Positions 1 to 47,086 of a stretch of DNA of 64,000 nt are shown in pieces. Numbering within the stretch: position 1 is the first letter of the stretch; each line of letters opens with the position of its first letter. The DNA is from Mucilaginibacter terrenus. Lineage in GTDB: Bacteria; Bacteroidota; Bacteroidia; Sphingobacteriales; Sphingobacteriaceae. The stretch lies in contig NZ_QWDE01000001.1 in the NCBI RefSeq assembly GCF_003432065.1, forward strand, positions 496,001 through 560,000, read 5' to 3'. The position numbers and the translations under genes are program-made. Below the pieces are notes generated by a model. That model saw only the letters and a program-made list of their open reading frames with translations, had not been told where the DNA came from and did no database searches.

Positions 1-13
1 AACTGTTTACAAG

Positions 14-198
14 TGTCCCACCATGCTATTGTAAAATACGTGAAATGGATGTATGAAGCTGTATATCATATAATTGTGTTTGTTATATAAAGTATTTGTA
101 CTGTCCCGGGGTGTCCCGCTATGAGTTGGTAACTTATTGTGAATCAATTATATGAATTTTTTAGGTGTCCCGGGTGTCCCGCTTTCCAAGCGGGACAC
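14..198. repeat. TGTCCCG box array, locus 1
   Basis: This gene-free stretch holds direct copies of TGTCCCG at 102-108, 112-118, 166-172 and 175-181, and a TGTCCCA at 14-20. The last direct box forms the left arm of a perfect 11-bp inverted repeat (174-184 with 188-198, 3-nt loop). The right arm carries the inverted box CGGGACA at 191-197. Box starts counted from 102 are 0, 10, 64, 73 and 89. The same layout recurs at 27379-27473 with a different core. No coding potential was seen here. Function is unknown: a protein-binding array, a REP-like mobile repeat or a structured RNA are all possible. Confidence 0.75.
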
Positions 199-208
199 TT
201 TATAATAC

Positions 209-244
209 AAAAGCGACTATGAACTAATGTTCGTAGCCGCTTTT
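209..244 (-). terminator. Intrinsic terminator after the secreted-protein gene at 267-1277
   Basis: Two 16-nt arms (209-224 and 229-244) pair with one wobble and one mismatch around a 4-nt loop. The minus strand continues into a T-rich run and the plus strand into TTTTATT, so it could act in both directions. It lies 22 nt downstream of the stop codon of the minus-strand gene and separates it from the TGTCCCG array. Confidence 0.7.
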
Positions 245-27231: not shown

Positions 27232-27266
27232 TTGGCGGAAAGTTAAGGTATTTGATCGAAAATGGT

Positions 27267-27473
27267 TGTTTCGCTATTAAGCTTTATGATGCATTCAATT
27301 CTAAATTGTCAATCTGCTTTCAGTTACATAATAGGTTATTAATTAACGATATAGCTAAATCATGTGAAGTTTTTGTACTGTTTCGGTTTGTTTCGCTCTG
27401 ATGTGTTAAGTAGTTGGTATTTAAATCTTTACCGTAAATTGCTGTTCCGGGTGTTTCACTTACAAGCGAAACA
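27267..27473. repeat. TGTTTCG box array, locus 2
   Basis: This 373-bp gene-free region between the MBL gene and the alcohol dehydrogenase holds TGTTTCG at 27267-27273, 27379-27385 and 27389-27395. It also has TGTTCCG at 27443-27449, TGTTTCA at 27452-27458 and the inverted CGAAACA at 27467-27473. Counted from 27379 the starts are 0, 10, 64, 73 and 88, matching locus 1. The last boxes form an 11-bp inverted repeat with one mismatch. The left flank AAGTTTTTGTACTG differs by one base from that of locus 1. No other gene or clear promoter was seen here. Confidence 0.75.
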
Positions 27474-27604
27474 CTTTCAGCGCTTATCAAAAGCCATTTG
27501 TCGACTCGACTCTTTTATTGGATTATTCTTAAGGTAATTTTTTTTCGTAAAACTATAATTGAGGTTGTTGTGTTATCTTGATAAACAAAGCTAAATAAAC
27601 ACAA

Positions 27605-46921: not shown

Positions 46922-46934
46922 TACCCTTACGCAC

Positions 46935-46973
46935 TGTATCAGGAGAAGGTGTTACACCTGATACACTTTTTTT
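46935..46973 (+). terminator. Terminator of the RidA-to-GH63 cluster
   Basis: Arms TGTATCAGG (46935-46943) and CCTGATACA (46957-46965) form a 9-bp stem followed by CTTTTTTT. An alternative inner stem AGGTGT/ACACCT overlaps it. It lies 14 nt after the GH63 stop codon. Confidence 0.85.
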
Positions 46974-47086
46974 AAGGTGAATTTTGTTAAGGTATTCAAT
47001 TATAGCTTGTTACGGTTTTTACATGTTGCAACATGTTACAGTTTTCAAAACCATGTTACACTTTTGGTGGCATGTTACAGTGTAAA
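46950..47086. repeat. TGTTAC box array, locus 3
   Basis: TGTTACA or TGTTACG occurs at 46950, 47008, 47034, 47054 and 47073, with a TGTTGCA at 47024 that is part of the palindrome ATGTTGCAACAT. Spacings are 58, 16, 10, 20 and 19. The last box is followed by TGTAAA, which makes a TTACA-g-TGTAA inverted pair. The array precedes the isomerase-like gene by about 100 bp. It resembles loci 1 and 2 in box form and in one 10-bp spacing, but the overall layout differs. Confidence 0.55.

Follow-up and report, generated by a model that had tools for sequence, protein, structure and literature searches.

How can all the boxes of a DNA element change their cores together while the layout stays the same? 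This question of joint switching is posed by two box arrays in a 64,000-nucleotide stretch of DNA, hereafter the window (contig C1:496001-560000), from the 4.6-Mb genome of Mucilaginibacter terrenus (G000). The original prediction held that the arrays share their spacing, their left flank and their trailing sequence, that each has its own core, and that the inverted last box follows the direct ones. The sequence reads as predicted in every one of these respects. Array 1 has TGTCCC at 102-107, 112-117, 166-171 and 175-180 and CGGGACA at 191-197 (offsets 0, 10, 64, 73 and 89), with CCC in all direct boxes; array 2 has TGTTTC at 27379-27384, 27389-27394 and 27452-27457, TGTTCC at 27443-27448 and CGAAACA at 27467-27473 (offsets 0, 10, 64, 73 and 88), its direct boxes being mostly TTC with one TCC. 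AAGTxTTTGTACTG and the trailing ACACTTT are common to both.

Alignment of copies showed that both arrays belong to copies of a dispersed non-coding repeat of ~220 bp (about 205–225 bp). The boxes described for the arrays stand, but the element is larger, starting ~75–110 bp upstream of box 3, and its one or two left boxes (14-19 and C1:495990 in copy 1, 27267-27272 in copy 2) had been missed. The left boxes are followed by AT-rich sequence and then by boxes 3 and 4, which are spaced by 10 bp and usually preceded by TTTGTAC. About 50 bp further on come boxes 5 and 6, mostly at a distance of 9 bp, and the element closes with box 7, which is inverted and pairs with box 6 in a hairpin; each copy comprises some six or seven boxes. 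Boxes typically read GTG-NNN-CAC or GTG-NNN-CGC, with TG-NNN-C as the minimum; the variant boxes of genome G152 (loci L406, L411, L415 and L420) are CGTTTCAC/CGTCTCAC, and the letter preceding GT is thus not fixed either. The outermost boxes are mutually inverted (GTGTTTCAC...GTGAAACAC) over only 8–9 bp, and the same motif recurs internally. In genome G052, 35 of 37 left ends have a middle part at ~+95 to +97, the remaining two lying at contig ends, and of 36 middle parts, all but the one at C30:1327 have a left end when up to 3 mismatches are allowed.

The window contains three copies, assigned to families by the NNN core of their boxes. Copy 1 (TCC family, 1..200, + strand) has its left end outside the window: box 1 lies at G000:C1:495990-495995, just beyond the edge, and box 2 of the left pair, TGTCCC, at 14..19 (+). 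The TTTGTAC anchor (95..101, +) precedes box 3; the four TGTCCC sequences of array 1 are boxes 3 to 6 (+), box 6 being the 5' arm of the terminal hairpin, and inverted box 7 (GCGGGACAC, 190..198, - strand) is its 3' arm and the right end. Copy 2 (TTT family, 27265..27476, +) has one recognisable left box, TGTTTC at 27267..27272 (+), followed by TGTTTC as boxes 3, 4 and 6 (+) and inverted box 7 (GCGAAACAC, 27466..27474, -). Its odd box, TGTTCC, is box 5 (+), which is also the odd one in four further TTT copies of G000. Copy 3 (46933..47082, -), a diverged member of the TAA/TAT family, was missed by both covariance models described below. It has TGTAAC boxes at 47079-47074, 47060-47055, 47040-47035 and 46956-46951, a TGTATC box at 46965-46960 and an inverted GATACA at 46940-46935 (all -); the last two pair in its hairpin, and relatives of this family are L236-L243 and L245.

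The spacing recurs well beyond the window. Exact matches to TTTGTACTGTNNCNNNNTGTNNC, the anchor plus two boxes, number 20 in G000 versus 0 for the reversed control, and TGTCCCN{2,22}TGTCCC has 61 versus 6; comparison of coordinates places all 61 within 23 TCC-family copies. A covariance model of 120 positions (R1) detected 42 full-length copies in G000 (E 2.8e-7 or better) and, at E 1e-4, matches in 24 of 149 genus genomes including G000 itself. The sequence was inspected for at least 16 of these 24, several others having one to five weak matches. Up to 24 candidates were scored per genome, and the copy numbers given for genomes other than G000 and G052 are minimum values. With a more diverse model (R2), scoring up to 11 candidates per genome, matches were found in 7 of 301 family genomes, all of them Mucilaginibacter, one of 25 genera; the genome searches with either model used strict filters. 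Scanning 40 further stretches of G000 (0.76 Mb) with R2 gave no additional copy at E 0.1 (best 0.21). Among the 149 relatives, TTTGTACTGTNNCNNNNTGTNNC occurs in 6 genomes: G000, G052 (34 times), G019 (once) and G020, G062 and G107 (once each), the single matches in the last three having no array. In a pattern search of contigs, 39 of the 80 stretches listed among 112 matching ones are titled Mucilaginibacter, and only one of the other 41 listed, L051, passed the array filter; it is the same DNA as genome G174. Sixty-seven viral stretches have the loose pattern, and the one that passed the filter for further boxes with the same core is not an array. Window positions 1-215 had no blastn match in plasmid or phage records, and a literature search with limited terms gave no paper on such a Mucilaginibacter repeat.

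The cores seen are TCC, TTT, ATT, ATC, TTC, TAC and TAA. G000 has three families: 23 TCC copies (TGTCCC), 20 TTT copies (TGTTTC; 19 strong, one weak) and some ten diverged TAA/TAT copies. Among tabulated copies, those of G052 and G186 have TTT; ATT is the core in G068 and, with one TTT exception among 12 copies, in G174, and ATC is the core in 11 of 12 copies of G019. G189 has ATT, ATC, TAC and one TTT; G169 has ATT, ATC and TAC; G010 and G062 have mostly TTC, and G165 has a mixture of TCC, TTC and TTT. After repeat fetches, a weak second hit in L070 and a reverse hit in L168 had been dropped, 170 copies were aligned, two of them G052 copies truncated by contig ends, and 164 were tabulated, 28 of which, with a gapped or malformed box, were excluded from the five-box count. 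Five identical cores were found in 116 of the 136 copies with five readable boxes, versus 3.5 (most 10) expected from shuffling among all copies and 75.8 (most 83) from shuffling within genomes; for G000 alone the figures are 25 of 36 versus 1.7 (most 6), and for G189 10 of 11 versus 0.6 (most 3). The left boxes lie outside the covariance model and were unseen by it, and they too have the core of their own copy, in 19/20 TCC, 66/71 TTT, 39/39 ATT and 18/20 ATC cases (other cores in 0–2), and in 2/4 TTC and 3/4 TAA cases. Seventeen of the 20 non-uniform copies have one box off (box 5 in 9 of them) and L177 has two. The orthologous copies L303 and L256 have two cores in the order TAC, TTC, TTC, TAC, TAC; L196 and copies of G165 are likewise two-core elements. 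The boxes are therefore uniform in most copies and do not vary independently, and the view that the repeat has several alternative specificities on a constant layout held both for the recurrence of the array and for the uniformity of its cores. To account for them the original prediction offered paralogous DNA-binding proteins, a REP-type transposase family and structured RNAs.

Structured RNAs find their best evidence in the terminal hairpin. In 43 diverse copies, 100% of cells are paired between boxes 6 and 7 and 46 are changed on both sides, neither value being reached in any of 500 shuffles, and if the repeat were a family of small non-coding RNA genes, with the inverted box pairing with a direct box and the boxes acting in RNA, such compensatory changes would be accounted for. 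However, box 4, which lies outside the hairpin, co-changes with box 7 almost equally (99.6% of cells paired and 42 changed on both sides in 43 copies, again reached by 0 of 500 shuffles), which pairing with a single partner does not need, and so the co-change is not merely that of hairpin pairing. Two of the five covariation measures (pairs with changes on both sides, and pair types) were not above shuffles because only three positions per box vary, and related sequences may exceed shuffles even without structure. Apart from the terminal hairpin no conserved structure was predicted in 80 aligned copies. A search of the window against Rfam 15 gave two tRNAs as the sole matches at the gathering threshold, and only a chance-level match (E 0.5) in positions 1-260. 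RNA genes are accordingly a weak candidate, and we consider them improbable.

Matched cores might also be the footprint of a few master copies, if the repeat were an old immobile element whose copies are kept alike by RecA gene conversion. Identity outside the boxes is indeed high within G052 (0.80) and G186 (0.76), and the ATT copies behave as a lineage across species: those of G189 share 0.58–0.63 outside the boxes with the ATT copies of G068, G174 and G169, versus 0.53 with the ATC copies of G189 itself, which in turn are slightly closer to the ATC copies of G019 (0.55). In G000, identity outside the boxes within a family is only 0.41–0.48 and the cores are nonetheless matched, which implies that the boxes are held by something other than recent copying; we therefore give this explanation little likelihood. 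Copies with the same core are not always one lineage, since the TTT copies of G000 are no closer to one another (0.41) than to every other group (0.41–0.43), including the TTT copies of G052.

Comparison of the same places in different species is informative about turnover. Both flanks match in 35 cross-species pairs, none of which includes G000, and by a scripted count the offsets agree in 25. Eleven of these 25, at four places, have different box-6 cores, the copy of the other species at the same spot having another core that is mostly matched internally. In most such pairs the two elements resemble each other no better than random copies do: the ATC copy L299 of G169 and the ATT copy L255 of G189, for example, have flanks 88–90% identical and share 0.57 outside the boxes versus a mean of 0.56. 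Identity at or near the level of random copies was also found in many same-place pairs. True orthologues do exist, namely L303 of G169 with L256 of G189 (0.94) and L084 of G052 with L310 of G186 (0.90), and all the other agreeing pairs of G052 and G186 have 0.78–0.85 versus means of 0.75–0.78 with other copies. The site of one gene pair is occupied in G169 and G189, the element being absent from the same gene pair in G052, G174 and G068; another is occupied in G169 and G189 and lacks the element in G000. The alignments of these empty sites are too diverged for the junction to be read, and no target-site duplication was readable.

Other sequences were noticed around the copies of G052 and G186. 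Between L064 (G052) and L319/L121 (G186) the right flank is orthologous (~92% over 2.6 kb) and the left is unrelated from the element outward, a rearrangement breakpoint at the element. Many copies in G052 (seen at L055, L056, L076, L108 and other loci of G052 and G186) are followed by a nearly identical short sequence (ACATCACCTTTTTTAATGTAATAACCGTTACT), and recurrent pieces (GACGGGTCA, GGGGTCGC) lie upstream of copies at the same loci, so another dispersed repeat seems to be present around them.

The explanation to which we lean, tentatively, is that the repeat is a non-autonomous mobile element on which a family of DNA-binding recombinases of diverged specificities acts in trans, recognising and moving it. 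It takes in the dispersion of the copies, the near-constant unit length, the co-changing boxes and the different families at the same place between species, as well as the resemblance of ATT (weakly, ATC) copies to copies with the same core in other species and the presence or absence of the element between species at a given gene pair. The likelihood of this explanation is lowered slightly by the weaker sign of a lineage among the TTT copies of G000. One protein would bind every box of a copy and each family would have its own paralogue, the hairpin end may be the processing site, and copies would spread in trans, through transposition or conversion. Turnover at old sites could come about as newer families insert there anew or convert the resident copy, and insertion of the TCC family may perhaps be coupled to replication near the terminus; the clustering of the TCC copies and their orientation relative to GC skew, described below, count in favour of the mobile element as well. 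Of the mechanisms first offered, paralogous DNA-binding proteins or recombinases give the best reading, although none was found.

Against the mobile element stand the searches for its enzyme, its parent and its target site, which gave no linked enzyme, no autonomous copy and no target-site duplication; the two-core elements weigh against it too. The expected recombinase, transposase or regulator could not be tied to the boxes. The neighbouring genes of 50 hits in G000 fall into the four orientation classes 15/13/10/10, with 2 hits having no upstream ORF; the gene context looks random, which speaks for the mobile element. A Pfam search of the 98 flanking ORFs, some of which are truncated at the locus ends or possibly in the wrong frame, gave no mobile-element family among the 25 listed of 132 matched families; those listed are all common (AraC HTH 4, AAA_25 4, and ABC, SMC_N and Lactamase_B 3 each). 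Blast among 19 loci around 20 copies of G000 gave no shared neighbour genes. No long autonomous copy was found by pairing left and right ends in G052 or among the TGTCCC pairs of G000, and L232 (C1:1265 kb), a strong copy of G000 that lacks recognisable left boxes, has unrelated sequence in their place with no recognised transposase-like ORF. None of the nine Phage_integrase matches in G000 has three boxes of the same core within 200 bp in loci of ~3.4 kb; the candidate of a tyrosine-integrase attachment site with arm-type boxes was rejected, no cognate integrase lying beside such a site at these nine loci. A candidate of another kind was parS, as TGTTTCAC equals half of it, and it was rejected as a general explanation since the layout also accommodates other cores.

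A REP-type transposase was sought in the same genome. High copy number, intergenic location and a terminal hairpin are what one would expect of REP/REPIN-type palindromes that depend on a Y1 (RAYT) transposase for their movement. The only Y1 match in G000, L326:1426-1971 (C1:68.6 kb), is of the REP-associated type and has its own GC-rich palindromes on both sides, which are unrelated to the boxes, and no box cluster was found within 1.5 kb of it in the 3.2-kb locus. The sequence before the hairpin is variable in alignments A1, A3 and A5, with no constant tetranucleotide of the GTAG type, and a length of ~220 bp contrasts with the 20–50 nt of REP. Membership of the REP/RAYT group fails on the two features tested, the tetranucleotide and the physical link to Y1, and this origin of the repeat is very unlikely.

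The place of the copies on the chromosome leads to the main rival of the mobile-element reading, in which the repeats stay fixed on the chromosome as sites for host proteins that organise it, in the style of MatP/matS or KOPS, with a paralogue for each family co-evolving in place. Seventeen of the 23 TCC copies lie within 720 kb (C1:458-1178 kb, including the window), a region that spans a switch in GC skew, and none of 20000 simulations of uniform placement reached this number; E. coli has 23 matS repeats in 800 kb (PMC3330122). In contrast, the 20 TTT and 10 TAA copies of G000 are not clustered (p 0.92 and 0.49), which counts against fixed sites. Of the 19-kb samples of C1, 9 of the 10 taken up to 879 kb have positive skew and 10 of the 12 beyond it have negative skew, and by the usual convention this switch would be the terminus; the sign also changes in samples on C2 and C3. 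Of the 19 TCC loci of G000 entered in the test, 15 have positive skew when read in the orientation of the element (t-test, p 0.0004), and orientation follows skew in G189 (13/17, p 0.005), G019 (10/12, p 0.03) and G169 (7/8, p 0.12), as sites of this kind might. However, the bias is absent from the TTT copies of G000 (10/19) and from G052, G186 and G068, and G174 leans the opposite way (p 0.06), which tells against fixed sites and mobile element alike. With strand tested against side in G000, Fisher p is 0.028, 0.020 and 0.065 for a switch at 740, 780 and 820 kb and 0.062 for one at 900 kb, the tested value nearest the skew profile. TCC copies in C1:458-1178 kb point towards the skew switch more often than away from it. 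Near one TCC copy, at ~718 kb of C1, L017:1126-1745 contains tandem copies with a period of ~145 bp that are ~80–83% alike.

Position and content bear on the fixed sites in opposite ways. That positions are kept between species, with the 25 pairs of agreeing offsets, favours them, and this retention is more than a freely moving element needs. One copy bears on them more closely: L280 of G019 (ATC) shares 0.66 outside the boxes with L256 of G189 (next best tabulated G189 copy 0.60) and 0.63 with L303 of G169 (next best G169 copy 0.62), the right end of all three is at the same base, and all five boxes have changed. These seem to be one orthologous copy whose boxes were altered where it stood. 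That hints at selection acting on resident copies, and it would be more readily understood if the host has a use for them. On the other side, the contents at kept places have often been replaced, their identity being near that of random copies, and matches in only 24 of 149 genus genomes and one of 25 genera mean either that a fixed site is dispensable or that the models miss it elsewhere. We regard fixed sites as possible but on balance unlikely. A bolder proposal, which is more doubtful still, is that the genome has chromosome-wide, mutually insulated families of ~220-bp seven-box sites, each with its own paralogue and one of them marking the terminus, in which specificities turn over and positions persist; turnover would occur either by in-place rewriting of all boxes or by whole-site swaps between families.

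Four known systems resemble the repeat in part. 1) MITEs are non-coding and 50–500 bp long (PMC10969869), and the repeat agrees with them in size and in being non-coding. It is also dispersed, intergenic and present in many copies, with subfamilies and with end boxes that are inverted, though only over 8–9 bp, and in its size, dispersal and absence of genes it works like a MITE and is a candidate member of that class. It is unlike a MITE in that its end motif recurs several times internally, at fixed spacing and with a core that is switched as a set, and in that neither an autonomous parent (among ends in G052 and TGTCCC pairs in G000) nor a target-site duplication (at diverged empty sites) was found. 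2) REPs are palindromes of 20–50 nt after a conserved tetranucleotide, mostly GTAG (PMC8266576). REP/REPIN sequences with RAYT (TnpA-REP) share with the repeat the intergenic location, the high copy number, the hairpin and families with their own recognition sequence, whereas the repeat is about five to ten times longer and has mostly direct boxes without a tetranucleotide tag. 3) Transposition with TnsE reportedly clusters near termination and follows replication in orientation, and the orientation of the IS200/IS605 family also follows replication (both PMC5371812). The TCC family in G000 resembles Tn7 TnsE and IS608 clearly in its clustering and weakly in its orientation, but clustering was found in one family of one genome only. 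The layout of Tn7 ends differs from that of the repeat, in which all boxes are direct except the last. 4) The matS sites of the E. coli Ter macrodomain offer a parallel to the clustering of the TCC family, 17 of 23 copies being in 720 kb around the skew switch while TTT and TAA copies are spread; matS is a 13-bp target of MatP, whereas the repeat is ~220 bp long with six or seven boxes, has at least three families in one genome, and has no match in most congeners at the threshold used.

The repeat probably documents how a protein has changed its DNA specificity time after time. Each copy offers six or seven boxes and a genome dozens of copies, with at least seven cores in all; in a large alignment they could reveal the recognition code as soon as the protein has been identified. 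Should the sites organise the chromosome, they would do so with several specificities at the same time, and insulated families, if they exist, would amount to a rapidly evolving counterpart of MatP/matS or KOPS with more than one specificity.
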